Assembly (NCBI GenBank): GCA_907165065.1
Contig: OU015525.1
Location: forward strand, 48,471,037 to 48,535,036
Length of the DNA stretch: 64,000 nucleotides
Source of the DNA: Caprimulgus europaeus
Taxonomy: Eukaryota; Chordata; Aves; Caprimulgiformes; Caprimulgidae
Reading direction: 5' to 3'
The position numbers were made by a program, and so were the translations under genes. Of the stretch, positions 26,601 through 62,386 are shown piece by piece; positions within the stretch are counted from its first letter, which is position 1, and each line of letters opens with the position of its first letter. The notes under the pieces are model-generated. The model had not been told where the DNA came from. It saw only the letters and a program-made list of their open reading frames with translations, and did no database searches.

Positions 26601-26779
26601 GCACGTTTCGAAGGAGATCAATTTTATGCCCGTGTGATCAGTTAATTTAATTTAACTTTTATTTCGGAGATTGATTCCGACTGGAGGTAGAGACATGAGC
26701 TAATTGTATCCTGATCCTTGCCTTGAGGGGTTTCAAAGCCCTGGAGCAACTATTCTCTGTATTTTGCTCTGTCTACCTT

Positions 26780-26951: not shown

Positions 26952-28265
26952 ATGTTCCAGGTAAGGGCTGCTCGGGATTGTTGTTGTTTGCAGCGGAGGG
27001 GCTCGGGCGCCGCTCGCTTCCACGCATGTGCCGGGCGCTCGCACCCCGCGCGGGGACGCGGAGCGGCCGCCTCGCCCGCCGCGCTCCCCCGCGCAACCGG
27101 CGCCCCCGCGCAGTGCCGCGCAGCGCCGCGGGGAGGCGAAAGGGAGGCGGGTGGGGGGGCCGGGCGGGGGCTCCTCCTTTCCCCACCGCCTCTCCACGGG
27201 GGTACACGGGGGGCGGTGTGCGCGTGGGGGGACTCATTTAATTTGCATGTGTGTATTTCCGCGCGGGGGTCCGTGGCCGGCATTGTTCTGCGGCGGGCAG
27301 CGGGAGGGGGCCGCCATTGTGTGTCTGGGTGTGTGTGAGTGGGAGCGGCAGGCACCTTCCCCCCCAACCCCGCGCCGCGCCCGCCCCGCCGTCCCTCCGC
27401 GGCACCCCCCCCGCTCCGGAGCCCCCGCGGCGCCCTTTGTTGCCGGGGCGGCGAAGGAAAGGGCGGCCCCGCGGCCCTTCCCCCACGCGGCCGGCGGGGC
27501 GAGGCGAGGCGGCGGGGCCGCGGGGCAGCGCCCGCCCTTCCTCCGCGCCGCCCGCTCGCCCGCCGCTGCGGGGCTGAGGCGCCGCCGTTGCTGGCAGCCG
27601 CGCGTGGCCGCGAGGGCTGAGGCGGCTGAGCCGCCGCGGTCGTTGGCGGCGGGACGGCGGTTGCCCCGCGAGGCTGCCCGCGCTGCCCCGTCCTCGGTGT
27701 CCGCCGCCGTCCCGGAAGAGAGCGAGCCGCCTCCGCCCAGTCACCCCCTCAAAAAAGCCGAAGCGCGCTGTCCGCCGCCTGGTTCCAATCAGCGAGACAC
27801 AAGTTTATCCGAGCGTGCCCGCGGGCACTGAGCGCTCGGACTGTTGGGGCAAATTAAAAATGGGCGAAACGCTTCCCCCTTCCCAGCGGTGGGGGCTGCT
27901 GAGAGAGGCCTCCGGTGCTTCCCGCCGACCGGCGGGGGAGGCCCGGGCAGCACCGCCCGGTGTGCGGGCGGGGGCGGGCGCTGTGGGGCCGGTGCCCGGA
28001 GCGGTTATTTCTGTTGTCACCAGCGCGGCGGAAAGGCTGCGCCCGAAACGCAACTTTCCATCCTCACCCTTCCCCGAGCGCCCGGGGCGGCGGGGAGGCT
28101 GCGGGGCGACCCGAGGAGGTTGGTCCCTTGCGCACGCCGAGTCCGGGGGGGGAGAGAAAGAAAAAAAAGTGTCATTTTTAATTGTTGCCGGTTGGGTTGA
28201 GGAGCGCCCGTGCGATCGATGCTCGCCCCGCAGGTCGGGGGCACCCAGTGAAACTTCCCCTCGCG
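26930..28265. promoter_or_regulatory. CpG island 1 (upstream KCTD1 promoter and start of first intron)
   Basis: Base composition changes abruptly from AT-rich to very GC-rich with dense CG dinucleotides, and returns to AT-rich near 28.27 kb. The island begins at the proposed Met-Phe-Gln exon and extends about 1.3 kb into the intron, the usual arrangement at a constitutive vertebrate promoter. Long open frames appear here on both strands only because GC-rich DNA has few stop codons. None shows domain-like sequence, and several end in poly-Pro, poly-Arg or poly-Gly. Confidence 0.88.
26952..26960 (+). CDS. KCTD1: KCTD1 short-isoform first coding exon (Met-Phe-Gln), partial gene
   Basis: ATG TTC CAG is followed at once by GTAAGG, a near-perfect donor, and lies at the start of a CpG island. 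An in-frame TAG at 26808 closes the frame upstream, with no other ATG in between. The exon ends in phase 0 on Gln, exactly like the long exon at 60530-62386, so either can join the same next exon. From memory, mammalian KCTD1 has a far-upstream promoter whose transcript starts with these residues before the common exon that contains the usual start Met. The Kozak context here is poor (C at -3), so many ribosomes may instead start at the Met in the next exon, giving a protein only a few residues shorter. The assignment rests on splice phase, CpG context and this recollection, not on an alignment. Confidence 0.62.
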
Positions 28266-28900
28266 CCTTCAAAATGACTGCGGTGATTGTGGTGTGTTAA
28301 TTACGCCCGAAGCACAACACCAAATGCTCCAGCACTCACTAGAGGTCCCTCTCAGAGCTGGCAGACGTTAGGGTACTTTCCGGTTGGGTTGTTGGTTTTT
28401 TTTTTTTTCCTTTTTTCCCCCACTTTCACTGTTTGACCAGCACTGAGTACTGCTGCAAACATCAGCGCATCGTACATTATTCAAACAAGGGTGCAAAAAA
28501 GATTTGCGACGTTTCTTTTTGTGCTCTTGCTGTTTGGGCATTGGTGGGACAGTTTACGTACACGTTCCTTTGCGCTCTAAAAAACTAATCTACATGGGAC
28601 TAATTTCATGCTGTAACTTACGAGTTTTGTTTGAAATACCCTCGCAGATTGCTGTCGTTGGGGCCAAGTTCCAAATTTTGTACTCACTTTTCTCATGTGA
28701 ATCCTGCCATGGAAGTAAACAGTGTGAAATTTGAATAAGGATTCCAGGCTATGGCTCATGGTTTTTAAAAGAAAAATATGCAGGCAAGAGAAAGCCGAGT
28801 ATTAAGATTGTAAGGAGTCAATAATGGTGCTGGAGGTGACTAAAAATGATCGATCCCCAGCAATTTTTATATCCAGACCATGTTAGGGAACTAAATAGTC
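26961..28900 (+). other. KCTD1: KCTD1 first intron, CpG-island part and its edge
   Basis: The donor GTAAGG begins the intron. GC-rich sequence continues to about 28.27 kb, followed by AT-rich DNA with a T-rich tract near 28390-28420. No internal exon is recognisable. Long open frames on both strands are composition artefacts. Confidence 0.55.
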
Positions 28901-28914
28901 CCCCTGATCTTCAT

Positions 28915-29035
28915 GTATTACAAGCAGTATTATCACCATTTTACGGATGGAGAAACTGAGAAATAAAAAGAAGGTCACTGACTTGCCTAAAGCCATATAG
29001 CAAATAAGAGATAGATCTGGAATCAGCTAGGACAG
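28915..29035 (-). mobile_element. MIR SINE (inverted)
   Basis: The + strand shows the reverse complement of the MIR core: TATTATCACCATTTTACGGA, GGAGAAACTGAGAAA, then GACTTGCCTAAAGCCATATAGCAA. All MIR hallmarks are in the expected order, at the divergence expected for an ancient SINE. Confidence 0.8.
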
Positions 29036-29272
29036 ATTTAGATCTCTTGCTGAGTTGCACTGCGGTAACCATTGATTTCAGTGGAGTTCTTCTGGATTTA
29101 AGTCAGATTCGGACCTTAGGTGTTGCTCTGTCCCTTAGAAACACTGTCTTCATCTAAATTCCGTTTTGAACATGACTGAAATAGATGCAAGATTTTGAGG
29201 GGAATATTTGTTGTACATCTAGTTTCTAAAAGACAAAGCGCTATGAAACTTTAGGACTATGTCTTTTGATTG

Positions 29273-29294
29273 CCCCCCCCCCCCCCCCCCCCCC
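29273..29294 (+). repeat. Poly(C) run of 22
   Basis: 22 consecutive C bases. Runs of this length are rare and are length-unstable in sequencing. Confidence 0.9.
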
Positions 29295-30107
29295 ATTACA
29301 GTTTTGTCTGTCCCATCAGCATAGTTCCCTAGTTGTTTTTTAGTATTGTTGGGAGGGTTTTATGAACAATTTCCTCAAAAGTCTAGTGCAGCTTGTGTTA
29401 CTGGTTTCCAAGAAGTCCTTCTCACTAGATGTCTCTGAATGAAGCCTTCAGTTTTGTGTCAGCACAATCTGAGAACAAATGATTTTGCATGAGGAAGACT
29501 TCCATTCATTGTGGGAAGAAATGAAAAATTGCATGACCGTGGTATATAAAAAAGCCAGCCTTTCCCCTGCATAGAGGGAAGGCTGCATGTAGAAGACTTA
29601 CTCCCATAGGCTCTTTATTGGATTATGATAAGTTTACCTATGGAGAAAGTGTGATGTGAAAGGAAATACTCGCTGATCATAACAAATGTGAGTATGCTAT
29701 TCAAAGTGGGGTCTCTCACAATTTAACAAAATATCAAATCTGCCAGTCACAGTCAGACAGCATTTCTCATGAGCCCAGCTGGGAAGGAATGATAATTTCT
29801 GCTTTCTGTATTCCAACTACTTTAGAAACATTTTCAGGATACCATAAAACAGACACAGATGCACAGATTGTGATTATGGTGCTTTACTGTTCATTTATTA
29901 ATGTGTGTATATGCAAACTGCCACCACTAAAGCCTAATGCAAAGTTCCTGCTTTCATGTAACTCATCATCAGTTCGACTAAGGTGCTGGTACTTGCGAGA
30001 GCTCCCAGTCTCCTGGTGTTGCTAACACCCCTGCAACGAGGGTCTGACCCCACATCTTAATGTGTAACAGAGACATAAAACATGGGTGTAATTAAGGATA
30101 TATTACG

Positions 30108-30135
30108 CACACACACACACAGACACACACACACA
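30108..30135 (+). repeat. CA microsatellite
   Basis: (CA)n with one CAGA interruption. Confidence 0.9.
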
Positions 30136-33100
30136 ATTTTAGTTTATATGTCTCTGAAATAGCATATAGGTGGGAATTAGCCCCACAGACTGTATCTGGT
30201 TTGTTTAAGACCATGTGCTCACTCTGTCTGAGCCAAGTTTTAAATGTCAGAGCTTTAGCAGCCTTTTCCGTGTTCTGTGCAGTAAACTACTGTGCCTCAC
30301 TTGCAGTGTGTGTTCAACTCTTCTCTGGTACCAGAGGAAAAATAATGTCTATCAGAAGCAAATTCTAGCGGAGATGCCTGCTGTTACTTATTTTGGATCC
30401 TTTTACACTGCAGCAGCAGAGCCAAGTTGGATCTCCTTCCAGGAAACAAAATTAGCTAGTTGTTGTTTTTTTCTGACAGAAACATAATTCTTACATTAAA
30501 CGGAATCTCTTCTGTTGGTCTGTGTTGCACTTATGTTTTCTTTTTACAGCCTGGGTGAAATTCATCTCTGGTATAGTGCCATTGACTTCTGTGTTGTTTC
30601 ACAAAGAATTAATTTGCCTTCCTGTGTTAAAATACAGATTTTTGTTGTCCTGCTTTCCACACGGTACAATTTCAATTTTTTTTTTCAGTTTCAAGGAGAA
30701 AAATATAAAATGCACATCTTCATTTTTATTTTGTCCAACTTCACTACTTGTGCAGGCAGAGGTACCTCTTCTTTCACTACTTCTCTGGTAAATTAAATTG
30801 AATATATACGCATACATTTAGAGAATGTCTGTAGGTGGGAGGAGGGAGTAACTACTATCTTCCTAGATTATAATACCTTAAAACAAATTTTTATGTATGT
30901 GAAAGCAATTAGCACATAATATATTGATGATGTATGTTGTAGCTTTAATAATCTTGGGTTCTCGAATGTGTATTTTAATCTTGCTTTTGATCCAGAAGTC
31001 AAATAAACAACATCCTATATCCAACTGAACCAAAGTTGATGCTGTTGCACGTTCAGTTGTTGTAAGCCTGTGTTTATGAAATGAGCGGCTCACCTGATAA
31101 CCTTTTCCCAACAGCTCTTCATCGGGCTGGCTACCCTCACTGGCAATGGGAGTTCAGGGTTTGATGTGGTCGGCAGGTTAGCGCAAATGCGGCTTTGCAG
31201 GTGGTTTGTGTGTAGCCAAAGTCTACGGGTGAGGGATGCAAACCTTTGAAGTGCTTGTTGGGGCAAAGGACAACTCATCCTGACAAATTACTTAGTGGCT
31301 TTTACTCAACTGGTTTTCCTTGCCCAACATGCTCATAAATAAGGAACAGCCTTTAAAAAAAAAAAAAAACCAACCACAAAAGGTTAAACTGCACGGCAGG
31401 TTTGCCCCACGATGACGGGAAACGAGTTCTGTCTCGCTGCTGTCAATGGCTCTTTCTGCTTCTGATTCTCAAACAAGACCTTCACAATTGTGGTCGTTCC
31501 CCCTCAGCCAGCATTTGTGACTCAGTTCTGCCTCAAACCTTGGGTTCAGTTTAGACATTTATGGGTTTTCCTTTATTTTCACTGGCATAATTCAGGATTA
31601 TTTGCAGAATAGCTCACATGTGGGGCTGTAACTGATAGTATGTAGGCTCAGGCATGTGCACTCCATTCCTGACTCTCTGTTAGTGTGGTTGCCTCTATCA
31701 GACAGGCACCTGGTGTGGGGACAAAAGTGTCTCCTACTGCTGTAGCAGGTTTTGCCAGACCTCACCTGTCATAGCTTTTAGTTTTCACAGAGAACTGTGA
31801 AGCCACATTGTGATTTGGTCAGACAGAGATGATGGGAGATTGTCTCGGGCAAAGTATTTCTAGCAGACACAAGGAAATGTCAATATTTCAGTGCAAGGCA
31901 CAGGCAAAACCTAATCTAGAGCACGGTGTGCACCTCTGAGCACCCATCTTTTGAGAAAGGTGAACTTCAGCTGGAACCATGGCTAGAAGGATGATCAGGG
32001 AATGGAGTGTTTGTCTTGTGAAAGGAGATTAGAAGAGGCTTGAAAGTCCACGTTAGCAAAGTGTAGTCTGGAAAGTGATATGGCTGTTCCCTGTAAATAC
32101 ATACAGGTAGTGAATCCCAGAGAGGAGAAGTAACTGTTCAGGCTAAACAAAAATAAATGTGAATATGAAGTGGCCCTGTTTAGGCAGTAGTTTCCAAGAG
32201 CACTGTCTGATAGATTATCTAGAAGATTCAGCATTGAAAGTGAGACCTTGAATTTGGTAATACTCTACTTTGGTCATATCTTTAAAACCTGGGCTACTTG
32301 GAGAATATTTGCCAAAAAAAAGCACTATTAGCCCTTTACCTCAGTAACCTTACCTGCACAGTTCCAATAGGCTATAGCTAAGTTTTTTCATGAACATTTC
32401 TGTCAGGGGAGAAGAGGTTTAGTTTTTTCAAAGAAAAAATACATTTTAATATATATTTTTAAAATCTAACAAAAAGCAATTTGATATTCTTTTACAAAAC
32501 TGAAACCAGACCTTTCTCATACCTGAAAACCATTGTTTATTTTGAATTTTCTTGAGACATAAATTTGAAAAAAAACAAACTGATTTTTTCACAGAAGAAA
32601 AATCCTTAGTTGATGTCTGGTTTATGGTCAGTGAAAATTTTGCATCTTTGTCAGTGGGAGGAATTTCTGAATTGCTCTTTAAATAATCTTAATCTTTTAT
32701 TTCTTCTTTGTTCCAGCTGCAAAACTATTTCTTTTTCTATAGTTCTTATTTTTTTCTGTGTTAGACCTTTAATACTTACAGTTTTCCTCTGTTTATTTAT
32801 TTAGTGGCGTTCACTTTATTTTCATCATACTCTATAACAAGGAGAGGAGAGATTTAATAAAGAAACATGAGCAATGAGCCCTTTTTTCTTTTCCTCACCT
32901 TCTTACAAACATTAACTTAAAAGCATCCTCTTCATCATCCAATCACCCAGCAAACTTTGTATGTGCTAGTTTACTTGTATACCCAGCTTGTCAGTCCTGG
33001 TGGAGAAGGACCGTCTCTCCTGCTGCACCAGAGCACTGCAGGTATTCAGCAAGTAATTAATAATAGCTCCTGCTATCAGTGTTGCCAGAGGAGCAGGGGG

Positions 33101-34947
33101 AAGAGAGGAGAGGAGTGGCGGACATTGAGAACATATAAATAACTGTCAGAAACTGAACTATCCAGGGGCTGCTGAAGTAGCTAAAAGTTACGGCAAAGTG
33201 CTTTTATGAAATAAAACCAGCTTTATTTTCTTGTGTGAGCAGAACCTGGCAGTGGCATTAGATGGAGGAGGTGCTGTGCATATCACCTCTTACAAAGGAA
33301 GGATGGGCCCAACATGACCCCACAGGCATCGAGGGAGGGAGGAGTGTTGTGGTCACCCAGACCCAGAGGAAGGAATTAAATGGGGATCTCTGACTAAAAA
33401 ACTGGTGTTGGTCTCCCCAAGGTGTATTGCTTTCTAAACAAGCCAAGTCTTACCTAGAGGTTTACTGAAGATGTCCTAAGAGAGATTGGTGGTCCATCCA
33501 CTCAGCACGGGAACTAGTGCTGAAAAATTCAGAGGATCATTATAATTTCTGTAGTCCATTATGTACCCATTATACCAAACACTTTTCTAAACAGTGAAGA
33601 GAGAGAATCCATGCACTAATGGCCACTCACACAGAGTAAACAGACCTTCCTAGCTTGCCAGAAACAAGTATTTATCTGTAGCAAGCCTGTTCTGCTGTGA
33701 GTGGTATGGCAGGAAGGGTGTTAGACAGGCTTGGCCTCTGTGTCAGAGGGGGCCTTAAGGGTGATGTCAAGGTGGTGACTGTAGGTGAAGGCATGAAGGC
33801 GACTATAGGAGAAAATGAAAAATGGGCAGACTAGATGGACAGAGGATAATTTACACCCTGATTATCAAAGGAAGCTCAGATATGTGGGAAGTTAGGGATA
33901 GCCTGGAAGACTGGTAAAAATCAGCAGATGCAGCACCAAGAGAGGGATTCAAAGACCGTCAAAAAGGAGAGCTGGACAATAAAGGCTCCATTCTGTGTAG
34001 ATAAACCAAAGGCTGATAGATTTATCCTAGACATCCAAGCGGCAGTCATTAACGAGATCCAGGTGGGATCTTACATGGATCTGCAGCTTGGCTCTGGAGA
34101 AAAGGAAAGCAGTGGAGTTTGGAGGTGGCTGCAGATGTGAGCTGAGGGGAAAAGAACAAGATGGTGCAACCTTCCTTACCCTCCAGCTTTTCCTTTCAGT
34201 GGCCTCTGTAGTACAAAGACATCTTGGTGTTCCTGGAGGCAAAATGAGAGCATTATTTTTGCTATCAACAGAAAACTGAATTTCTGGGGCTCTTGGTGCT
34301 GTTCTGAGGAAGAGGCTTCCTCAAAAATGTGTAGGCAGGAGTGTTCCTGGTTTGAGGACATATAAGAAAGCAGCTGCAGTCTTTGCTGGGCCTTCTGCAC
34401 TCAGGGAGGTAAGACTTCATCAAGAATAAAAAAAGTTAGCTCTTTCTCAGGGAAAGAGGTTGTTCTTTCAGGGGAAAACTGTAGCTTTGAAGAAGTATTT
34501 GCTTTAGCTCAAAAATCTGTATTTATTACTGGGTACATACAGTCTTTCCTTTTTTTCCTTCATCTTCTTGAACTATTTACATCTATGCCTTGCAACTGAG
34601 AGTTCCACGGGTTGCTTAAGAGATAAGCTGAAGAGTGATATCCTTATGCACTTATAAGCTAATGGCTTTTTAAATTCCATTAGATGCCCTCTTATTTTAT
34701 GAAGGGCATCTGATTTCTTCTTCACACCATTCATTATTTTCTATACCGCAATTCTATCATCTTTTACTGTTTTCCTTTCTAAATGAAATAGTTCTGGTCT
34801 TAATCTTTTTGTTTAGAAATACCCCCACATGTCTCTAATAATTTTTGTTGCCTCTGGCTATCTTGTGTAGCTATCTAGCACTCCCATCATTGCATCTCAC
34901 TGGATCTTTTAAAGCTAGTTCCAAAGTCATTAGTGTGAAGGAGACTG
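30136..34947 (+). other. KCTD1: KCTD1 first intron, nothing coding recognised
   Basis: AT-rich intronic DNA. Short open frames (for example 30515-30796) are hydrophobic because of T-rich codons and are not convincing. A poly(A) run lies near 31352-31368. The purine-rich segment at 33.7-34.1 kb has an old-repeat look but no family signature. Confidence 0.5.
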
Positions 34948-35045
34948 AAGGATGGTCTTGTGGTTAAAGTACATCACCAGGAGTCCAAAGTTTTGCTTAC
35001 AGATCTCCTGCCCTATGACCTTGGACTAATCACTCAGCAGCAGAG
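34948..35045 (+). mobile_element. MIR SINE
   Basis: MIR order is visible: TCTTGTGGTTAAAGTACATC, CAGGAGTCCAAAG, then ATGACCTTGGACTAATCACTC, matching the head and core of MIR with many substitutions. Confidence 0.6.
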
Positions 35046-38000
35046 ATCCCAGTTTTTTTTTCTAGTCCCAGGAAACAGTATGGGGGAATTTAAAGCAAAA
35101 TATGTTAAGTGTTTCTTTATGCCCGGATGGAAATTACAGAAGCACAAACATATTAAATGTAGTAGTTTCAATTGTTTTTCCACGAGGTAGCTGCATGTGT
35201 ATTGAAATTTGTAACTTTCTCCCTAACTGTTGATTGTATGGCGCTTGGCTGTTTTCTGTTTGTTACACTGCTCCCCAAACAAATTCAATTAAGTCATTTC
35301 TTTTTGGTTTTTTTATGGTGAACTTCATATGGAAAGTATGAGTTACAAACAACTTGGGCCAAACAGACACATGGCTTTCATGCATCCTTGGGGACTTGGA
35401 AAGGCAGCACAGTCCTGCTGAAAGTGAAAAACAGAATCAAATTCCGATCTTTTACATGTAGGACATGGCCTGTTCCTGGGAGGCAGTGGGTAGTCCTCAC
35501 TCCTACTCGTACTTCCCACATGTGGGATCAAGACTAAGGTATTGCTGGCTTGTCTCCTCTCTAAATGAACTAATTATCCACAACCTGTCAAGCCTCTCAC
35601 AAGAGACGTAAGATTCACCCATCTGGTTCCCTCCTCTGACGCTTGCAGCTAGGCCTGTCTGTTACATATTTCTAGCACCTCTATCACTCTCCAAAAGCCC
35701 TCTTCAGGTCTGGGGCACCTCACTGCCTTGGTGTGTCATTCGGTGCCTCATCGTTTCTGGCACACAGGAGCCTGCAACACTGCAGCTGGGCGTGCACTGC
35801 TGTCACAGCCCCACACTCCAAGGGATCTCACAGCAAACACGTTCCCAGATGTCATCGCTTGCTGCAAAACAGTCATGTCTCAAGCACTGGGATAGGAGAT
35901 CTCTGAAGTTTCTGAACTATTAAACCTACTTTTTAAAAAATATCTTATGCCACAAAAGGTGCTAAAATACTCTTCTTTGACAGGATGCTACTCCACCAGA
36001 ACAGCAAAGGCAAGATGCTTAGATATTTGTAGCAGAAAACTAAGCATAACAGAATTCCGATTTAAACAGCATTGTTTTGTCTGCTGGTTATCCTCCTAGG
36101 CCTGTCCCTCCTTTTTTTGCCTTGATGTCCCTCTTTCCTTTTGTAAGCAGCTACTACTCCTGTGAATACCCCAGATGGCATTGCTTGCTCCTTTTGCTGG
36201 CTGACTCCAGCCTCTGCACACATTCCCATGCAAGCCCTGGGAAGTTCGATATTCCTCTGATCTCTTTGAAAAGAGGCCAGTCCTACAAGACTCTCTTGAT
36301 AACCCCAATCTTGTCAATAGGCCTGTTTGTGTGATTAAGGATAACACCTAAGGATGCTCAGCAATTTTGGAGCATCACAAATCTTTGCAGCTTTAAAAGA
36401 GGAAAAGGGTGGTTTGCCCTTTGGTGGGGCTTGGAGGATTTTGTTTCCCTTCTGCCTTGTAGCTGGCATTTTGTCAGAGCTTTCTGCTCACTAGCATTCC
36501 CATGACACGTGAACACACTCAAAGAAAAATTTCCTGTGAGAAATCAGTGGGCTTCATTAAATTTTCAAAGTTTAGAGCTGTGTTCTTCTCTGCCCCTCTC
36601 CATGGGCAGCTGGCCCTGCCAAGTTCTCATTGCTTATGTGAACACTTGATAAATCTCACTGTGGACTACATTTGCTCTTTCACTGAAGCAGTTATCACAC
36701 ACATTTCCCTAACACTTTAAAATTATGCCTGCCAAACATTTTCTGATGTAAAGTTAAAAGTCATCTATTACTGAAGTGATTTTTTCAGTCCTTGTGGGCA
36801 TGTTTTTCTTTCCTTTTTTTTTTTTTTATGTAGTTCAGATAGTTTCAGGCTCTTTTAAACAGGCTGCCAAGGGTCAGTTTCAAAGTGTATATATTTTTTT
36901 AATTTTCTGTGCCCTAAAAATATGTTGGTGCTATTCTTCTCTTTTATACATCTCCTTTTAAAGCTGAAGTCAAGTGAATGTAATGTTGCCTTGCTGCCAA
37001 GGCCACAGAGAACTTCATATAAAACTGGAAGTTCCTTCTTCCTCTCCCATGCAGGTCTCAGTCCTGCACTTACACCAGGAAGGATGCTTTTCCCATTGAC
37101 TTCAGTTAGCCACTGCCAAAGAGGCCCCATATCACTGTGCAAAGTCAATGACACTTTCTGAAGTGGCCTCCTCTGGGTATGGTGGCACTCGTGCTGACTG
37201 TGCTCCTGAGGTGTCCAAACCAGGGATGTGGCTTGAAGGGTGTGCAGCTCCCACCTGGCCGCCACGGCAGCTCACATGGAAGGGGAGCAGGATCTTGCCT
37301 AGGGCAGAGCTGGGATGGGACTAGATCAGGCATCCAGATTTGAAAAACTTCCACAGTTGGGTTGGATCTATCTGGATCTGGTTGCAGCTTTGCAGTCTAA
37401 TGATTGAATGTCGTTTATGGCCAGCCTCTATATGCAAATCCTTTGTTCGTATTCAGAGCTGTGCCTGACCCTTTCCTCATTTTTCCCTCTTTTCACCTCC
37501 TATATTGATCATACTCCTGTTCCCAGAGTATGAGCAGAAGGCAAGATGTCACTTCTTTCCCTCTGATCCTCTCGTTATCCCCTCCTCAGTGCTCCTGGCA
37601 TTTTTCTTTAAATGCCTCTTTTCTTCCTCTAGGCTCCAGAGCTGTGTGTGGTTTTTGAAACTGATTAAAGCAGTTTGTCCTACCATGGCAGGGAGATGCT
37701 AAAACAAAGCATATGTGCCTCTTGGTTTTAAACTAGGGTTTTCCTTACTCTTTTCCCAGTTTCTTGTTTAGCAAACATGGTTAAACAGGATCATGGTGCA
37801 AAAAAAGCAAAGCAACTCCTTCCACCCTGGAGAGCACCAGCCTGATAACACATCCAGCTTTTTTCTAAAACCCTGCTAGTGCCCTTGAACTTACTGAAGC
37901 ATGCTCCAGCATCAAATGGTCTGACCAAGTTGAATTTGTCATTTCCCTTCAAAGTGCCTTGGCAGGACCTTTATTTGAAGTTGCAATTGTCAGTTGTTTA

Positions 38001-39099
38001 TGTCACAGCTGCATTTTGTGCAGTATCTGGAAGTGTAGAAACTTTGGGTTTGGGCCAGTCTGAAATAAAGAAGCTAATGCAAAAGCCCTCCACTGCAGTA
38101 AAACACATGCAAAACATCATACAAAGCTTTCTAGGGTGGAGATGGTAGAAATCTAATAGCTAGCTAACACTTAAACTGCACTGCAATTAAAATATAATCC
38201 TTTAAATTTCTTGCATTTGGAGGGAGCAGAGGGCTGGAAAGGTACAGAGAAGGAAGCAGGTCGGAAGTGAAGATATTACAATCCTTGACCTCAACATGGA
38301 ACTACTTAAGCATACCGTAATTGCATCACAGAAGGTATGCATACCCTGAAACCAAAAAGGAAGCAGGAAGGCAAGAAAAAACAAACACAGTATGATGAAC
38401 CAAACAGGTAACCTTCAGGAAAAGGAAATCTAGTGCTGGCTAACCCGAAAGAAAGGAACGCAAACTGGCAAGGAAAAATGAAAGATGGGAAACAGGAGGA
38501 ATGAGAGGAAATTTCAAGTGCAAACAGACACATTTCTGCAAGCCAATGAGAAATATAAATATTTGAAAGAGAATTAGTCAATTTGCTGGATCAAAGGAGC
38601 AATTAAAAAATGACAAGGGTATTGCTGAGACTACATTATATCCTCCCATCAGTCCTTATTGGTTGGAAATACATTCACTCTCTACATATTTTATTTAATT
38701 ACTAAAGATTAGGGCCTGTCAGACATTGAGGTATCAGAAGAGAAACTGCAGGATTGACATGCTGAAGTAACAAACCTCCCAGAGCAGATGGCGTAAATCA
38801 AGGCTGATAGCTGTTAACAAAATCATGCAAGTTTCCCTTAAAAGTAGACTATTCTACTATACCATATCAATGGAACGTGACATGTTTTTTACTTTAAAAC
38901 CAAGATCATCTCAGCTACATTAAAAAGAAAGGAAGGTTGACATATAAGTTAGTGAGTTATAAAACCTAGACATGAGCTTGATGCTAAGCATGACTGATCC
39001 AGTAACAGAAAAGCATGCCTTTTTTAGCTTCCTAAAAAAAACCTTGAAGTATCTCAATGAAGCCATGGATTACGAAGAACCATTTAATATAAACTGTAG
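35046..39099 (+). other. KCTD1: KCTD1 first intron, nothing coding recognised
   Basis: Intronic AT-rich DNA with a T run near 36815-36828. The segment near 37050-37110 contains a CCATTGACTTCAG motif shared with 29071 and 30581 and may be an unnamed ancient repeat. Open frames of up to about 136 codons show no domain. Confidence 0.5.
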
Positions 39100-50572: not shown

Positions 50573-50657
50573 CTCAGAGAGCATCCACAAAACCATAACT
50601 CAGTTGTCTGTCCCTTGGGTGGGCTTCTGAGTAGGACAGTGAAGGGGTGTAGTAGCG

Positions 50658-50709
50658 TTTGTTCATGGCATTTGTTCGTGGCATTTGTTCATGGCATTTT
50701 TTCATGGCA
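50658..50709 (+). repeat. 13-bp tandem repeat, four copies
   Basis: TTTGTTCATGGCA-type unit at 50658, 50671, 50684 and 50697, with single-base differences in the second and fourth copies. It lies about 85 bases after the CR1 end. Confidence 0.9.
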
Positions 50710-53700
50710 TTAGGGAGACTCTTCATGAGATTGGTCAGAGAACATGAAGAAATTAAGGTCTGACTACCTTCCCCAGCATGGGGGTGGTTGTGTAGCTCCT
50801 GCATGTTACTAGTACTACTGCTGAGAGCTGAAAATCTCAACGTGACTTCTTGAAACAGTACCAGCCTTCTTGGGCCCCACAGAGCTTAAGAGCCAGAGGT
50901 ACCCCTGCAAGGGGCAAACTTGTTTTGCCAGGCAGCCAAAAAGCCTCTGGGCTTGAACTGTCCATACAACAATTTTTCAGCAACCCCACTAGGTCAGAGT
51001 GATTATAACAATCTTAGGTGGACAGTTTAGCCATGTGTTTCTGCCATAGTATAGCATCAGAATAATTTTCCCACAAGGTTTTGGATGTGGCCTAAGCCAG
51101 GAAGCTCAGCAGGTAGGTTCAAGCAGATTTCCTGTCTGTGGGTGCTAATAAGTGCTGCTGACCTCAGTGGGACATCAGGATTTTTCTAGATTATTCAGCA
51201 GCATGCAGGGTTCTCTCTACCTGGCCCTAATTAGCCCATGCACTAGTGGCCAAGCTGGAATTCAGACGACAAAATCCTGTCCCTCCCTGTTTGGGATCTG
51301 AGAAGGTCATTTGAAGTGATGAGTTAACAATTTGAACCTAGAACTTCCTTTCAGATAAAGTGCCCATGCCCAAAACATTACAAATTAATCCAGATACTTT
51401 GATCCCTTTAGCTTCACAAACAAATCTCCTGTAATTCTTCATCTCAATTTTACATATGACTGAGATTCCTAAGTACTTAAACACCAGTACTTTCTGATGG
51501 AATAAAACTAGTTCTTCAAGAATATTACTAAACTTAGCAAAGCCCAATATATCTTGCTGAAGAAAAGAAAAGCTTTAAAATTTGGGAACTCCAGTGAAAA
51601 TAGAATGAAGCTGATTAACTGTTGTATCTAGAGTTGGACAGAAAAAGCCAGCTGTGATTGCTGAAAATGCAGTGAAATAGTGGGAGCTTTTGGTAGAAGT
51701 ATCCTGAAAGTCACATCTAGCTAGTTTTAGAGGAAAAAAAATTGTGGTGCAGGATGTGTGAAACACAGAAAGGCTGTATTTTCCTTCATTCTTCTACCAG
51801 TGTGCCAGAAAGACCAAAGGTCAGGTTTTCAGAAGAACACTGTGTTCACTAAGTCTAATTTAATTATCTACATAAGCAGTCATGTTTGCAAATGGCTAAG
51901 CACCAAGCAGCTCCCATGGAAACCATATCAGGTGCAAGCCTGTTTAAAAGTACAGCTGGTTTAAATACCTATACAATAGCTTTTAAATGCAGAGACCTTC
52001 TAATAATCAGAACAGTTATTGGTTCTGAGAACGTGACGAATTCTGAACATTTCAAATTTCCCAGAGTAGTTCCTTGTGATTCTTTGACTCTTCTAAACAT
52101 TTTGGAAAGAGGAGAGAAAAATGGCTTGCATAGGATTTAGATGGTGATTTTTTGATAAAGAAATCCCGAGAGGAAAAGAGGTCAGTAATTTAGAGACTTG
52201 TCCAGAAAACCAAGTCAAGTTACCAGCTTAGTTCTCATAGGCAAGCTTATCTGGGAAATCCCAGGAGTGCTAACCACCAGTCTTCAGAATAAGAAGTCTA
52301 TCTTAAAAATCACAGGGATTTCTTTTTCCTAAAATTATAAAACTATGGTTCTCCACCTGATTTCCAAGTTTTTTACAGAGCAGTAATTCAGGGTTCCAAA
52401 CTTGTCTTCCAAACACTAATTTTCAACCCCTCTGTTCCAGCATACGGAGAAGGAAACTCCAAACCTACTAAGTATCACAAGCCTGTGTGATTTGGCAACC
52501 CAGTTATCAAGATGTTACTGTCAAGGCCAAATCCATAGGAATAACCTTGAAATAAAGGCCCTATTGTCTCCCACAAGCTCTTCAAATTATCCGTACCCCA
52601 AGAAACTTCGCAATTGGAATAGGATGCTGGGCATTTTGGAAAGAGATTAAATTGTTCACGGCTGCCTGGGAATTAACAAACTTCCTCCTCTTTACAGTGG
52701 AATGCAGCATATTTCTGAGCCAGGTGGAGGATACCATGTGAGGTTCTTGTAGGACCTGGAGTTGGCACAAAGAACAACATTTTCAAGTCTGCACATATAT
52801 CTGAGTTACCAGGGCTCAATAATAATTTTCTGGCAGATTAGTCCTGCCCTACAGCAGGTTTCTCTGATCACTAAAGCCAGAATGAAAGCAATGGGTCTGG
52901 ATTTCACACTTTATATTCTTCCAGACTGAAGCTTTGATTTTAAAAACTGTTTTTTTTCCTGTGACACCAGTCAACAAGAACAAGTCTGACAATACACAGG
53001 TAAACAGCAGAGTAAACAGCTCCATTACAGGCCAAGTGACACACTCATAACTTGAAGGAAATTATTCAGCATAACTCGATAAACCTCTGACAAGATTGCT
53101 AATGGAGAGATTGTGCACTGCAAATTGCAAATGTGACCTTGTTTTGTCCAAGGCAAAAGAAGAGCTTACAATTTTTTTCTTGCTTATGTTAACAATGCTC
53201 ATTGATCCTAAAAACCAGGGTCTTTACTAGCAAATAATTACCTGCATGTAATTAAATAATTCAGTCCATGAATGCGCAAAGTGTTGACTCTGAGGGTTTT
53301 TTAAATTGTTTATTTGATGACACCTTCAGTTTGGTGAAAGAAGCTGGATTTTAGGCTTGATCTTCACGTAAGGAAACTTTGATTTGGGCACAGTTTAATC
53401 TTTCACAAATAGAAAATGGCAAGGTACAACTCAGGTACAAAGCAAGGTACAACTCAGGGATGGACAAAAAATGTTGCACTTAAGCCTTCTCAACAGTTGA
53501 AGATGTAATTTTTTTAGAATGCCAAACTCTAAGAAAATACTGATGCTCACCAGCTGTTAGAAGGTATTTTTCATCTGTTTTAGTATTACCTGATACTGAA
53601 AACACAAGAGGTACGTCCAATGCACCCAGTCTTTTTCAGTAAACTTGATAAGCTTTCTCTGTCTTATCTCTGTATCAATTTAGTTTCTTTACTTTTCCAA

Positions 53701-54481
53701 GCTTTTACCCTCTCTAACTTAAAATACAGCACTCTATTGCAGTCGGCACATTCAAGTCTCTCTTAGTTCATGGCCTCTGGCTTTAAACCTCAAATGAAAA
53801 TCCTGACAATAAGCTGAAGATTTTCCCCCAGATTTTACCTGGAATCACAAACAACACTAGCAACATTTAGTTTGTGAAAGTGGTTTTGTACACAAGATCA
53901 GTCAAATCAAAATAAGCAAGCAAATTTTCTTTATCTATTAATATTCTGCCACATGGTCTACAATTTTTTCCTTTATATTAATCAAATCATGGTCTGATAA
54001 ATGACGTGACATGGGCTGGAGGTGAACATGCTGTACTTTTTTATCCCTGTATTCTTCTTCCATATGATCTACAAATTTGTTCCCTTCTACTCAAATGCTA
54101 CTTTACCAGTTAGTGTAATCTGTGATGCAAACCTTATTTAGGCAGTTTCTCTATGTTTAGATCTCATAGGGTAACTAGCAATACTTAAGCATCTCTCACA
54201 CTGAGAAGGAAATGTATCATTCTATTATTAGGGCCAGAAAACTTCATGACCAGATCATGGTTTAAAAGAAAATAGATGCAAAATTTGCATGAGTCAGATT
54301 TGCCCACATCCTATCAAATAAAACGAGGGAGAATGAAGAGAAGGCATACAAAACTTAAGGTTATATTTAATTGTAAGCTACAGTTTCAGCAAGGGGAAGG
54401 TGAGGCTGGGTGACAGCCTGAGCAGAGCTCTGACACTGTTTAACAGTATGGTTACACTCTCTGTGGGCATCGTTTGAACTC

Positions 54482-54526
54482 ACCCAGTTTTAAAGTTGCT
54501 TAAACTGGGTTTGTGTCAACCCAGTT
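54482..54526. repeat. Inverted repeat cluster ACCCAGTTT
   Basis: ACCCAGTTTTAA (54482-54493) pairs with TTAAACTGGGT (54500-54510) with one bulged base. ACCCAGTT recurs at 54519-54526. Confidence 0.75.
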
Positions 54527-57500
54527 GAGATAACTCAATTGAGAAAAGAAAATCCAAGTAGACAGACCATTGGTGCTGGGGTTTTTGCTACATGAATACC
54601 TGAAAAGGAATTTCCAAATTCACTATGACACAGACATAATACTGGTGGAAAAGGGGAATAATCAGTTTATTTCAACCACTAAGTCAAAACAAAAGTATAT
54701 TGACAGTGAATTCATGGTATAAGGAGGCGTTAAAGCTACTAGCTGATGGTCAAAGGAAGATTCCCTTTTTCAGGCTGTGCTGAAGGCCAGCGGTTGCCCT
54801 GTCCCTTGACAACCCCAGCTCTGAGAAAATCTTGATGTGAATAAGTTTTTTGGGGTGTAAAGCCCTACCTCTGGCCCTGCACGAGAATCAGAGCGCTCAG
54901 CACACCTCGTGGCAACACAGAAACTTCAGGTCATGCAATGGAGATGGAAAAAGAAAATAAGAAAAAATCCATGTGGTACAGAAAACAAGGTGGAAAGTGC
55001 ATTTCTTCAGAAACCTATTACATTACATTTTTGTTTGTGATATTGTAAGGGCTCAGCTTTTCTCTTTCTTTTTGCTTAACGGAATGCTTAAGAAGTCTCC
55101 TCAGCCAGACACTGTTATCATATAGCCAGTTATCCCTCCCTGCATTTCTACACTTCATTCAGCCCAGTGTGACTTCCAGCTTGAACTTTTAATTCAAAAT
55201 GTTCTTTTATTGGAAGATTATGAATGGAAAATAGGATTTCAAGAACTCTATGTCCAATATAGCATCAATTTATGCTCTATTACATAGTACTGAAAGCACT
55301 GTACAAAATGCAAACTTGTACTTACACAGACCTACAACACATATAAAGGCTTTGTGGTTCTCAAGGATCTGTCTTTGGAAGTTCCTTTCCTCAGATGCTG
55401 GCTTGGTCCTTCTAAATTTCCCTCACATCCATGTAGAATTTATGGACCCTGTTGAGGAGTAAAATCTAACTTATATTGTCAGCTTGGAAGGAAAGAGCTC
55501 TTTCTCTCCATGGAGGATAAATGTTATGCCACTAATATGCCAGGTTGCTCAGTGTCAGTAGTTCATAGAAACAACTGGACAACCACTGGAGCAACTATAA
55601 CCAGCTAGTGCTATGCCTCACAGACCAGCCAATTTGTTTCAAGTGCCCTCATCACCACAGAAGCAAAGACAAACATAAACCGAAGCACAGCTAAATAAAA
55701 CACTAGTATATCTCCTAGCAATTTACCTCCAGCACTTTTTAAAAGACCCTTAAAACCTTTATGCAGAGCAATGCAATTTATTACCTGCCTCTCTTCAAGC
55801 TGTCTGACAACATATTTCTTCTGTATTTTTGGAAGCAAAAATGCTTCAGCTGCTTGACACTGAAAATAATGATGATTCACAAAGTCTTGACTTTTAATTT
55901 GCAAAGCACTAAACACGTGCTTTCTTACAAAGATGATGACTCAGCTTTTCTCCGGTTTGTTTGGAAAAAGGACCAATCAAGACACAAATTGTGGCCTCAG
56001 CAACAAAAATATTGCTTTTGTAAAAGAAAAAAAAAAGTCAAGTGAATAACAGCAAATACCTATGGGAAAAAAACATATGAGCATACTTCAGAAATATGCT
56101 TCCAATTGGCACCATGGAACTTCATGAGGGGGCTGGTTTGATGTTGCCTTCACGTTTCACAATGTGTCAGTAGTAGCTGGTGCTTTGATATGCACAGCTA
56201 CCACTAACATTTCATAATATGACAATCTAAGAGGTGAAATAGCTTTTGTATTTTAAAATTCATTAAGAACAGCTGCAACTTAGTGCTGATGGATACACCC
56301 TTACTTTCCTAAATCAATGTCGCCTTTGTTAAGTTATACAAAGCCATTTCATTGCCATGCAGACAGGAGACACCAATCTAAAAAAGAAAAATTTAAAATA
56401 AAAGAGATTTAAAATCTATTATAGCATATTATGTGTCAGCATCAGCTGTCCCTAGTGTGAAAAAGTAATGAAACAACTAGAAATATCATATCTACAAGTC
56501 AAAAAGTAAAATAAAAATGTAATAGCATTTTAAAGTGACAATTCTGAAATGCTAGAAAACTTCTCTCAAAACTCTGTGTTTCTGGGTGGAAGAAGGATTT
56601 CTAGGACATGCTTTTTCTCTAAGTGAATTTTCCAAGAGACACAAGTGTTATTTGCCTTCTAGTTCTGTAGTGTCAGTATGGATTTCTCATACTGATTTCC
56701 ATGTAGCCTGCCTCTACAGCAAAAATATCTTGTGTTTAGAAAACGTACTAACACATTTTAAGAACATGTTTATTGCATTTAAACTAACAGTAAAAGCACA
56801 CATGGAGAAAAAAAAAAAATTCTTAAAAAGATGCCATGCGGTCAGACTTAGGGTTAACACACAAGCTTGTTTCAAGCAGTGTATTTTTTAATTCTTTTCT
56901 ACATGACTAGACTGGATCCCAGGGAGCAAATAAGTGCAATGGATGTTCTTTGCTTCTTGGCTTTTGGGGGATATTCTGGTTTAGTTCCTAGTGAAGCTTC
57001 ATGATGAAACATCTACCAAGCAATACCGAACCAGGAAAGCTTTAGGTGGATGTTAGTGAAAGAACCACCTACCAAGGCTACAGGAGGACCAGCCTGTGTT
57101 AGTCGGAAGAAGGGTAGGCTGTGGAGAGCTTCAGCACAATAGTCGGATTGTGAAAGAATGTGGCTCTAGCAAGCTCTGTGTTTGCCAGGAGAGAGACCAG
57201 GAGGCAGGGGAAAAAGTAGCTTTAAAAAGAATAGAGGAAAGGCCTGAAACTATTTGGTAATGTGGTTACAAGCATTACCTTTCTTGTAAACCAACTGACT
57301 CATCGACAAGGTTTTTTGGTTTGGTTTTTTAACCTGGCATGCTAATTCTGTGGCATATGCATTGATTTCCAGCAATACACAAGGAAAGATAATCTGGTCT
57401 AGGGTTGCAGCCTTAGTGGGGCAGGGTGCATTAGTAGTGTTCTGTGGGTGTTACATCTTCTTTACTGACAGCAGTAATGAAATGTATTCTCCAAGTGTGA

Positions 57501-57819
57501 AGAGGACCTATTCAAAAATCAGCCTCAAACCTCGAGTCCTAGGGGAGAATGCTGCCTATGCCCACACGGGCCTCTCGGCTGGAAAAAACTCTGATTAGTG
57601 ACGTGGAGGGTGGAGTGGATGTAAGTTTAATGTTATTATGCCAACTTGCATTAGACAACCTTGGGCAACTCTGGCAGTTTCGAAATGCAGTTCGATTACC
57701 TCGTCTAACTTGAGAGCTTGAACAGTATGATTTCAACTTCTGGAATACAACTGACTAGGCTAAATCTGGCCTTTAGGAATGTAGACAGATAGGTAAGTTA
57801 ACATGTATGTATTATTAAC

Positions 57820-57890
57820 TTACATATGTATATATACACATACACATACCTATATACATATAGGTTATACAGGTATATATGTTATATGGG
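57820..57890 (+). repeat. TA/CA-rich microsatellite
   Basis: Degenerate TATA, CATA and ACAC units. The short open frame across it reads as repeated Thr/His/Ile and is an artefact. Confidence 0.8.
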
Positions 57891-60394
57891 TGTCTGCCCA
57901 ATTATGGGTGCCTGCAGCATTCTATAAACACCTCACTTGCTACTCTCTGAATTCCTCCTGGCTGCTGAGGTACTTCCAACTGATGTGTGTAATATGGATG
58001 CTCCGTATACATTTTTCCCCTCCAACCTCACTGCAAGTTCTTCATGTCCTTTATACTTACTATTAGTATACTGGACTCCATATTCATCTCCAAGTCTGTC
58101 AACATAGTTCACCTCCTGTAATCAGGACATGGTGATTAAATGAACATCCAAGTACAGAAGCTGTCAACCTAGTGTTCATCTTTTGTAAAGTTTAAAAGAA
58201 TCAAATGTTCAATTACCTTTTGTACTCATGTGGCTCTGAAAAGCTCTTCTTAAAAAAAAAAAGCAAAGAAAAAAAAGTATCTTCATTCCTCTACAATCTT
58301 AAAATAGAATCAAGTTCAAAGGTTAATGCCAACCATGTCATTTTTAGCATTTATGGGATCAAGAAGGGGAAAAAAAAGATCCCTGTAGAAAAGGTGTATG
58401 CTGCAAGCCCTGCAGTTCTCTGTCTTCTAGGGTGGGTTGTTATATGTCCTAAAAAAAGCTTGTCTGGGGTATTTAAAACACAATCTTGCCGCTTTTGCTG
58501 CATTTAGCTATCTGTTTCAGCACCTGGTCCATCTCATTGGAAGGTCTTTGAGACTTTGGTTCAGGATTGGGTTGCAGATAGCACATGATGGGGGAAAAAA
58601 AGTTATTTATAACCTCTTTATGTGCATAGGAAAAAAGTTTCTAGAATATATAGATATATGCTATTGACCTAAGAGGGAACATAATCCACTCTCAAACTAC
58701 AGAGCTAGAACAACTTCTTCAGCGCATGCAACAACTTTGACCTCCATGTAATTACTCCAGGCTTACATCAATATAACAGTGCCGGGTTTCTTTTCAATTA
58801 TTTTCTGGGAGTGGCAGGCTCTCTTCCTGGAGTGCTTATTTGTTTCGAATTGGCCTAATTTGCGCAACAATTTGCACATCCCTTTTTTGGGATTCCACTT
58901 TTGACTGGACGGCGAGGGCTGGGGCTGCCCCGGACGCCCCGTCCGTGGCCGCCGGCCTCTGCCCCGGGTGGGGGCGGCCGCGGGGCTCGGAGCTGCCCGG
59001 CACCGGTACTGAGCCCTCCCCACGGGTAACCGCCGCGGTGGGGCCCGGCGCTGAGCCATTGCCTACGGATGAGTAAGCACCAAGTGTGGTAACTCCGAAC
59101 AGCAGCTCTGCAATTAAGGCTATAATTTCAGGTGTAGCCAGTAGTCGTAATGAATATTTATTTCAAGGTACCAAGTAAAAGAAATCGTCCGTCTGAGTGG
59201 CGTGGGGAGGGCTGTGTGGTAGTTTGGTTTGTGTAAGGTGGGTGCTACCGGCGGGGAGCTGCTGAGGCACGGCCGCCTCGTCCCCTCCTGTCCCGACTCG
59301 GGTGGGACAACTTTCCCGCCCGCGGTGCGCGGCCGCAGGGCTTGAGCCTTCCTGCTCGGGCCGGCACAGGACCCTTCCCGGGGAAGGAGGAGTAAGGAGG
59401 GTGCAGCGAGGCTGCCGGTTGCGGCTCCGTCGGGTTCGGCTCCCCCAGCGGCTCCTCTCTGCCGAAGCCCCCGCAGAGCGGCCTCGCTGGGTCCGGCTCT
59501 GTGCCCCTGTGCTATCTGGCGTGGGCGGCGGGAGAACCCCGGGCTTTCGCCCTGTCGCTGAAGGGGGCAGCTGAGGAAGAAGATGGAAGGCAGCGGCGTC
59601 TGTGGAAACCCGAGAGCCCTCCGGCTCCCCTAAACCCTGCAGCCCCAGAGAGCGGCCCGGGGAGGGCTCCCATAAGCCCCCGAGTCCTTATTTTTCTCCC
59701 TCCGCAACCAACCTCGCCGGGGCTGCCGGAAACCAAGCGAGCGCTGCGGCTACCGACCGGCTCTTCCTGGGTAGGTTGCGAGTCGCACGGATGCAAAATC
59801 CCGAGCGTCCACCTCATCCTGAGCCCCTCGACCGAATTCCAGGTTCCTGGTAAAGGTGCGAAGCCGGTGGTGGGCGGTGCCGCAGGCAGCGACCAGGTCC
59901 GCCTCGCCAGCATCCCGTCGAAGGCAGAGCCGTTCTGCCGGGCAAGCACAGCCCGAGTTTTTTTGGTGGGTTTTTTTTTTTTTATCCCTTTTTGGGTTGT
60001 TTGCCTTTTTTTTTTCTATGTTTGTTTTTAAGTTACTGTGACATGAGGATGTGCGAGGGTTGAGGAGGTGTGAGGCGCGCCGAGTTCCGTCCCAACTGCT
60101 TGGTCCAAAAGGAGCTGCTCCACAGACGGAGCGGTTTATTTTCGGGGATGGGGAGGCCGGACGGGCGCTCGGGGTGGGGGGCAACCGCCGGGCAGGGGCG
60201 GATGCCCTGGTCCGGCCGTTTCTCCCCACCCCCGGTGCCCATCTCCGTAGCTTGACGGGACGGACCCGAGGTGAGCGGCGGGCGCGGTAAGTACCGCTCC
60301 CTTCCCCGCGGTACCCCCTTAGAGCGGCTCTGCTGCCTCCTCCTCCTCTCCTCCATCCATCCCAACCCCTCCCGCCCCTTCCCCGTCGCCGCCA

Positions 60395-60535
60395 CTGGGA
60401 GCGCGGCCCCTTTAAGAGCCCGGCTTTGCCTCCCGGTAGCTGAAGGTCATTAAAACACAAAAGCGCTCCAGCGCTGCGGTCCAATATAGCGCATGCGCCC
60501 TGCCCGAGGACTGGCAGGGAGACGGCAATATGGCG
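60395..60535 (+). promoter_or_regulatory. KCTD1: Core promoter of the long KCTD1 exon with NRF1 and YY1 sites
   Basis: A palindromic NRF1-type site (GCGCATGCGC) lies at 60489-60498, a CCAAT motif at 60481-60485, and a YY1-type element (AATATGGCG) at 60527-60535 that includes the start codon. A long pyrimidine-rich tract precedes them (about 60322-60398). There is no clear TATA box. NRF1 plus YY1 at a CpG island is typical of housekeeping-style promoters, and YY1 sites at the ATG commonly lie just downstream of the start site, implying a short 5' UTR. That last point is inference. Confidence 0.6.
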
Positions 60536-62386
60536 AGAATGCCTGGCAGCGGCGGCGGCGGAGAGTGGAGCGGCGGCGGGGGAGGCGGAGGCGGTGGCGG
60601 CGGCGGGAACAATGCTGGGGACCGGCCGCCCGGACGGGGCCGCGGCGTCGCCCCCCGCCCGCACCGCTACTGCAGCGCCGGCGAGGAGGAGGAGGGCGAG
60701 GAGGAGGATGAGATCCAGGAGGTGCAGATAACGGGGGACGAGGAGGAGGAGGAGGACGGAGCCGATGGGGGGCTGCTGCTGGACGAGGAGGAGGAAGAGG
60801 AGATGGGTCTGGAGTGGGACGGCGAGGAGGAGACGGAGCCGCTGCCGCCCGCCCCGGGCCGTACACCGGGCGGTGGCAGCGGCGGCGGCGGCAGCGGCGT
60901 CGGGGCGGCCCCGGGGGGCGCCGCGGCGACTGCCCCGGGGGGTGGCGGTGGTGGCCCCGGGGGGGCGGCGGAGGACGCGGAGCTGGAGGCGGCCCTGCTG
61001 CTGCAGCGGCCCGAGCGGGCGCGGCTGAGCGAGAACACGCGTCTGGCCACCCGCTACGCCGTGCGCATCTTCCGCGAGTACCTGAGCGAGAAGGCGCAGA
61101 GCCCCGACTTCGAGACGATGGACAAGGGAGCGCTCTGCCGGGTCCTGCGCTCCTTCTACGCCGAGGCACGCTCCAAGAGCGGGCAGCTCTACTCCAAATC
61201 CTCTCTCATCAGCATCCGCAGCTCCCTCAACCGCTACCTCAATGAGCCGCCCTACTGCCGCACCCTCGACCTCACCAAGGACCCCGAGCTCCGCGCCGCC
61301 AACCTCACCCTGGCCGCCGTCATCCGCAAGCTGGAGGAGCAAGGCGCCGGGCCGGTGGTGCAGAAGCAGGCCATCACCCGCGCTGACCTCCGCAAGCTCT
61401 ACACCTGCAGCGTCTTCAGCACCCAGAGCCCCTTCGGGCTCCTCAACAAGGTCTGGTTTGAGACCTGCATGTACTTCTGCACCCGGGGCCGAGAAAACCA
61501 GCGGGAGCTGGAGGAGGACTCTTTCGGGCTGGCCGTGGATGAGGACGGGCGCAAGTTCGTCTACTTCAAGGCGTTGGGGCCATACCACAAGTCGCGCTCG
61601 TCCTCCTGGAGCAAGAAGCGGGCGGAGAGCAGCGACGAGGAGAACCTGCCACGCATGTATGAAACTGGCACCGAGTTCTGCCCCTATGCCAGCTTTGTCA
61701 AGTACCTCTCTAAGCGCAACCCCCTCTGCAAGGCCTTCTTCCAGCGCCCACGGGACCACTGCAGTGAGGGTGACATCACCTGGTATGAGAACAAGGCCAT
61801 CGGCAAGAACCTTCTGGGCACCCGCATGCAGATGCTCTCTAAGGCCGCTAAACTCTCCAAGACCTACACCAACCACTGCATTGGCGCTGTCTCCATCGCC
61901 ACCCTCAACAGCATCGCCGGCATTGGCACTAAACTGGGGGGGCCGCAGCCGCCGCACCATCACCCCCCTCCTCACCACCACCATCACCTCCTCCACCACC
62001 CCAGCGGTGGGAGCTGCTACACCCCAGCTGCCCTCAATGGCGGGCCGCGGCCCCGGCCACCCACTGCCAACCCCTACGTGCTGCCCAAAGACGGTGACGC
62101 TGCGCCGGTGAAGGCAGAAGTGGCCGCGGTGGCCCCAGCCAAGCGAGCCCTCTATGAGGCAGTGTTCCCAGCAGGGGCCGCGGCTGGTGGCGAGGCCTGT
62201 GGGCCCTCTGCCTCCCCCAAAAGACTCTGCCGTCGCCCCGCTGAGCCCTTGGACGCTGCCGCGCCTGCCGTGGTGGTGGTCTCAGTGAAACATGACCCCC
62301 TGCCTCACCTCCTCCCCGAAGCCAATGGGCACAGAAGCACCACCTCACCCACAGTAGTTTCACCTGCTATTGTTTCCCCCACACAG
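60530..62386 (+). CDS. KCTD1: KCTD1 long-isoform first coding exon (DUF3504 / Crypton-derived domain), partial gene
   Basis: This exon encodes 619 residues. ATG 60530 is the first Met after an in-frame TAG at 60437 and has a good Kozak context (A at -3, G at +4). In order the protein has a poly-Gly run (residues 15-26), acidic Glu/Asp-rich blocks (about 51-103), a Gly/Ala/Pro linker, a conserved globular region (about 166-468) that I recognise as DUF3504 (motifs LATRYAVRIFREYL, IRSSLNRYL, TYTNHCIGA), a His/Pro-rich stretch (about 473-494), a VKAE sumoylation-like site (Lys528), and a Ser/Thr/Pro tail. Known: long KCTD1 isoforms join this domain to the BTB protein KCTD1, a nuclear transcriptional repressor, and the domain descends from Crypton tyrosine recombinases. 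The exon should end at CAG|GTAACT (phase 0, Gln619). The open frame runs on to 62530, but that part is Lys-rich low-complexity sequence and is read as intron. The BTB exons lie outside the window. The recombinase residues look lost, so a DNA-binding or interaction role is more likely than catalysis. Confidence 0.9.

Follow-up and report, generated by a model that had tools for sequence, protein, structure and literature searches.

What decides whether the protein made from KCTD1 carries a transposon-derived domain is the question raised by this stretch of the Caprimulgus europaeus genome. The window, i.e. the whole stretch of 64,000 nucleotides that was analysed (C3:48471037-48535036, within an assembly of 1,177,730,439 bases), contains a three-codon exon and, further 3' on the same strand, a 619-codon exon encoding the domain DUF3504. 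The original prediction held that two promoters feed one set of downstream exons, giving KCTD1 with or without DUF3504, and that promoter choice determines whether the domain is attached. Exon 2 was sought past base 64000 by reading the 100 kilobases (kb) 3' of the window, whose 2,036-base overlap with the window is identical. The analysis argues strongly that KCTD1 has two alternative first exons here, each very probably with a CpG-island promoter of its own, both ending in phase 0 and both joined to one common exon 2.

Two first exons and a common acceptor

The two first exons and the exons that follow them are:

26952..26960, + strand: upstream first exon (coding bases only), ATG TTC CAG (M-F-Q), read directly, phase 0 end
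26961..26966, + strand: tiny-exon splice donor GTAAGG; predicted intron to exon 2, 67,833 bases
60530..62386, + strand: long alternative first exon, 619 codons, CAG end in phase 0, read directly
61376..61831, + strand: DUF3504 domain, residues 283-434 (PF12012, 55.7 bits, cut-off 29.7)
62387..62392, + strand: long-exon splice donor GTAACT; predicted intron to exon 2, 32,407 bases
C3:48565830-48566008, same strand: KCTD1 exon 2, read 3' of the window
C3:48592757-48592901, same strand: KCTD1 exon 3, read 3' of the window
C3:48595209-48595514, same strand: KCTD1 exon 4, read 3' of the window
C3:48597643 to the stop at 48597801, same strand: KCTD1 exon 5, read 3' of the window

The start codons of the tiny and long exons are 33,578 bases apart. 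As had been claimed, both exons end in CAG in phase 0 directly before a GT (GTAAGG after 26960, GTAACT after 62386), the junction letters at the tiny exon being ATGTTCCAG with GTAAGG immediately following; the donor 9-mer of the long exon, CAGGTAACT, is shared by the donor of KCTD1 exon 2. Exon 2 begins 30.8 kb past the end of the window and its acceptor is in phase 0, reading CTTCACAG and then GAC AGT CGG CCC AAT ATG. The single set of downstream exons that had been proposed is therefore supported by one common acceptor past base 64000 (C3:48565830), at which either junction keeps the KCTD1 reading frame. Joined to exons 2-5, the tiny exon gives MFQ-DSRPN-MSRPL..., a product of 265 amino acids (aa), and the long exon gives DUF3504-DSRPN-MSRPL..., a product of 881 aa; both are open as far as the KCTD1 stop, so that a form with DUF3504 and a form without it can each be read from the DNA. 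Translation from the ATG of exon 2 (MSRPL) gives 257 aa.

We identify the gene as the KCTD1 orthologue from its BTB_2 domain, its KCTD1/15 C-terminal domain and a nearby aquaporin-family gene. The 265-aa product matches PF20871 KCTD1-15_CTD (162.1 bits, 3.5e-48) and PF02214 BTB_2 (62.5 bits, 4.8e-17; part of BTB_2 is found at C3:48592737, on the strand of the window), and its best PDB chains are named KCTD1 (2.7e-170), with alignments that span residues 8-265 or 9-265. Scores are 565-568 bits for full-length KCTD1 chains; chains of the BTB domain alone differ little (KCTD1 224.2 bits, KCTD15 210.3 bits). Aquaporin-family (MIP) exons lie on the same strand at C3:48395138-48397004, 74-76 kb upstream of the window, which is in line with the proximity of Kctd1 (15.0 Mb) and Aqp4 (15.4 Mb) on one mouse chromosome, as given in the available excerpt of PMC5559776.

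The same excerpt describes mouse Kctd1 isoforms of 257, 265 and 861 aa, the second having eight residues inserted directly behind its start codon and the third carrying DUF3504 (PMC5559776). The short form is thus 265 aa in both species and a long DUF3504 form occurs in both, although the latter is 881 aa here and 861 aa in the mouse. As DSRPN occupies five codons before the exon-2 ATG, the eight-residue insertion implies that the first exon has three codons and ends in phase 0, provided that the mouse exon boundary is the same; the tiny exon has just this form.

Promoters and alternative origins of the first exons

Does each of these exons have its own promoter, or could one of them be an internal exon or a chance arrangement of letters? 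CpG islands were called with a 200-base sliding window, GC 0.55, CpG ratio 0.65 and a length of at least 400 bases. The features that bear on the promoters are:

26842..28405, unstranded: CpG island 1, covering the tiny exon; 1,564 base pairs (bp), GC 0.696, CpG observed/expected 1.0
58769..61792, unstranded: CpG island 2, from 1.76 kb 5' of the long-exon ATG to a point within that exon; 3,024 bp, GC 0.657, observed/expected 0.85
60481..60498, + strand: promoter-like elements 5' of the long exon, CCAAT at 60481 and the palindrome GCGCATGCGC at 60489
60526..60535, + strand: CAATATGGCG, spanning the long-exon start codon; the sole NAANATGGCG match in 162 kb on both strands

Only three CpG islands are present in the 161,964 bases analysed, i.e. 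one at the tiny exon, one at the long exon and a third lying 24 kb beyond the KCTD1 stop, so the 94.8 kb before exon 2 hold two islands, each on one first exon. Splice sites were scored with approximate consensus matrices, and ranks refer to the + strand of the same 161,964 bases (9,163 GTs for donors, 12,045 AGs for acceptors). No credible acceptor was found before the long exon: the top-scoring of the 66 AGs in 59500-60529 reaches 1.86 (rank 900 of 12,045), which makes it very probable that the long exon is a first exon. In addition, an in-frame stop at 60437 precedes the long-exon ATG with no ATG between them, and a stop at 26808 stands in the same relation to the tiny-exon ATG. The possibility that the long exon is internal and joined to the tiny exon was rejected, given acceptor scores of at most 1.86 and the in-frame stops at 60437 and 26808 ahead of the two ATGs. 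One CpG island per first exon, together with the lack of a credible acceptor before the long exon, fits two promoters feeding one exon set, each presumably with capped starts of its own, CpG islands being indirect evidence of promoters.

The long exon is also predicted to have promoter-like elements of its own. The palindrome GCGCATGCGC, which we take to be NRF1-like, occurs at a single place in 162 kb, but for the longer NRF1 pattern YGCGCAYGCGC the same 162 kb give no match; CAATATGGCG is presumably a YY1/TISU-like element. The CCAAT pattern has 88 matches in 162 kb, and 58769-60560 contains six GGGCGG boxes. Around the tiny exon (26500-28400) there are 12 GGGCGG boxes and one CCAAT match, with neither the GCGCATGCGC palindrome nor a NAANATGGCG match in that interval.

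The donor of the tiny exon ranks fourth of the 9,163 GTs and is the sole donor scoring at least 5 bits in 26700-28499. When 26701-28500 was shuffled 1,000 times with dinucleotides preserved, a donor as strong arose in 26 shuffles, and one led by a phase-0 ATG at most 60 nucleotides before it in 5. The 94.8 kb 5' of exon 2 contain three donors of this strength, two of them ATG-led in phase 0. These counts indicate that the tiny exon is weak evidence when taken alone and needs outside support; it is settled by the exon-2 acceptor, whose phase 0 keeps both exons in frame, and by a product whose 265 aa equal the published mouse length. It could be argued that the tiny exon is an unused chance ATG near a donor, and that exon 2 is fed only by the DUF3504 exon and a noncoding leader. 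ATGNNNCAG followed by GTRAG does occur at two places on the + strand of those 94.8 kb. However, the rank of the donor, its site within a CpG island, the 5 equal cases in 1,000 shuffles and the agreement with the published 265 aa make this very improbable.

Some observations nevertheless weigh against two separately promoted first exons. The long-exon donor is only moderate, having C instead of G at +5, and at rank 81 of 9,163 it is weaker than the tiny-exon donor; the exon 4 acceptor, which is predicted in KCTD1, scores only 2.75 with these approximate matrices (rank 565 of 12,045). Agreement with the mouse 265-aa form rests on length, the eight residues being compared by number and not by letters (excerpt of PMC5559776). 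There are also weak acceptor-like sites at 26782 (2.88, rank 525 of 12,045) and 26811 (2.46, rank 662 of 12,045), about equal in score to the exon 4 acceptor, as would be expected if the tiny exon were the 3' portion of an internal exon, with the actual upstream promoter further 5'. We regard this as unlikely, because CpG island 1 begins at 26842 and covers the exon, and the 26.8 kb of the window 5' of that island hold no further CpG island.

Beyond its donor the frame of the long exon continues for 47 codons, from 62387 until a stop at 62528-62530, and the 10 kb after the exon contain 15 AATAAA/ATTAAA signals, the first at 63153. That the long exon mainly yields an unspliced read-through product was nevertheless rejected, since the in-frame fit with exon 2 and the published 861-aa form (excerpt of PMC5559776) speak for splicing. 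The read-through frame (62387-62530) includes a very basic stretch, KRKKGKKKKK, before its stop; intron retention with early polyadenylation would yield a DUF3504-only protein with a nuclear-signal-like tail, although this may be chance.

With two separately promoted first exons, transcripts from the upstream island would encode the short BTB protein, i.e. 265 aa from MFQ and probably also 257 aa. The MFQ start has a weak context (-3 C, +4 T), so ribosomes on the tiny-exon transcript would probably reach the in-frame MSRPL start (-3 A, +4 T) 24 nucleotides further on, and such leaky scanning probably yields the 257-aa form besides the 265-aa form. Transcripts from the downstream island, whose MARM start has a strong context (-3 A, +4 G), would encode the 881-aa protein, with a domesticated and catalytically dead Crypton recombinase domain placed before the BTB protein.

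A possible noncoding first exon in CpG island 2

Is the choice between two distant promoters the whole of the switch? The two-island layout fits two promoters, but the claim in the original prediction that promoter choice decides the attachment of DUF3504 may be too simple, as CpG island 2 contains strong donors of its own:

60271..60292, + strand: strong candidate donors in tandem, GAG then GTGAGC and GCG then GTAAGT, with GTs at 60271 and 60287; prediction only

These donors could end a third, noncoding first exon at 60270 or 60286 that is spliced to exon 2, in which case the choice of start site and splice site within one island would also decide the attachment of DUF3504, beside the choice between promoters 33 kb apart. 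They lie 243-259 bases 5' of the long-exon ATG and rank 25 and 45 of 9,163, above the long-exon donor, and a further candidate (AAG then GTGGGT) at 59238 ranks 34. Moreover, a 257-aa form starting in exon 2 requires either a noncoding leader or leaky scanning (excerpt of PMC5559776). However, the promoter-like elements at 60481-60535 lie 3' of these donors, suggesting that transcription would start below them; a longer leader would be hampered by the ATGs at 60018, 60043, 60049, 60148 and 60202; and donor-like sites arise by chance in GC-rich islands. We hold the third exon to be a tentative proposal, with perhaps one chance in a few of being right. A slightly more doubtful extension of it is that starts above 60271 splice out the DUF3504 exon while starts at the putative NRF1/YY1-like elements keep it, so that a shift of about 250 bases would decide the attachment. 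If this were true, a start-site shift of about 250 bases in one promoter would govern the use of a recombinase-derived domain, in addition to the distant upstream promoter.

The Crypton-derived domain and its relatives

How does this arrangement relate to what is known of KCTD1? DUF3504 derives from Crypton tyrosine recombinases, and KCTD1 has been described as having two isoforms, b (long) and a (short) (Kojima and Jurka 2011, excerpt of PMC3212892); these authors infer that insertion of a Crypton upstream of KCTD1 gave rise to a new transcript variant before the cartilaginous fishes branched (same excerpt). The isoform pair and its Crypton origin are thus already known, having been published in 2011, and the gene layout has already been described in mammals. 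As here, isoform b carries DUF3504 in a single exon, N-terminal to BTB, and there are long and short isoforms (PMC3212892, as excerpted). There is no difference in principle from that paper, to which the acceptor, its phase 0, the CpG islands and the intron lengths are added for one further genome. The word 'promoter' does not occur in the main text of PMC3212892, the excerpt of PMC12657730 holds nothing on KCTD1 isoforms, and among the matches listed no title concerns KCTD1 promoter choice, which is no proof of absence.

In the published account the DUF3504 of KCTD1 keeps the catalytic His and has lost the second Arg and the Tyr (excerpt of PMC3212892). Most of the R-H-R-Y tetrad is likewise lost here: TNHCIG keeps His and has Gly in place of Arg, Pro/His-rich sequence stands where Tyr would be expected and the alignment shows no tyrosine block, which agrees with that account; the residue assignment is our own, from one pairwise alignment with the ATF7IP relic described below. 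A phage-integrase SAM-like match upstream of DUF3504 scores 12.7 bits, below its cut-off of 22.3. A PDB search with the long exon gave only weak matches (27 rows, best E 0.0026), which we read as low-complexity. On the function of the KCTD1 domain, the excerpted sources go no further than suggesting that it binds DNA or protein.

Crypton-derived recombinase domains also occur in KIAA1958, ZMYM2/3/4, QRICH1 and an ATF7IP-intron Crypton (excerpts of PMC3212892 and PMC9004415, the latter repeating the ATF7IP link). Catalytic residues have been lost in KIAA1958, ZMYM2/3/4 and QRICH1 as in KCTD1, but the hosts differ, and among all of these only KCTD1 has a BTB domain, to the extent that the same excerpts show it. 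The C. europaeus genome has 17 DUF3504 matches, including that of the window and one on C5 (others are on C37, C27, C14, C23, C1 and C12). By our guess, two matches 23 kb apart (C37:13054216 and 13076969) are likely KIAA1958 a and b, C27:3359598 is possibly KIAA1958L, and the intron-split matches are likely ZMYM/QRICH1.

The match on C5 belongs to a 523-codon open frame (L002, C5:47490550-47491443), 35% identical to the KCTD1 DUF3504 region and 3.6 kb after an ATF7IP_BD match (C5:47486773-47486952); this position makes it probably the ATF7IP-intron Crypton relic. In the alignment with KCTD1, the catalytic His is replaced by Leu in L002, the Arg is retained and the Tyr seems to be missing; despite its open frame, L002 is therefore probably inactive. 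The C-termini of this frame and of KCTD1 have a similar IKQEP motif (VIKQEPMT, IRIKQEPLD), probably by coincidence, which we take to resemble the SUMO-attachment consensus. The frame of the ATF7IP Crypton is reported to be interrupted by a frameshift in both chicken and turkey, and to be intact in the zebra finch (excerpt of PMC3212892). Comparison of the long exon with two further frames (L003 and L004) gave no match. Elsewhere in the window there is a perfect 75-bp tandem duplication at 1986-2129 (1.9 copies, 100% match), probably recent, and a search of the window for noncoding RNA gave 0 Rfam matches at the gathering score and 0 tRNAs.

As the isoform pair and the Crypton origin were published in 2011, no general idea is changed. 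Read from a genome without annotation, the locus confirms a clean case in which a host protein acquires a transposon-derived domain by way of a new first exon, compatible in splice phase with an acceptor that both first exons use, and the exact junctions make it simple to test when and where KCTD1 bears its Crypton domain.

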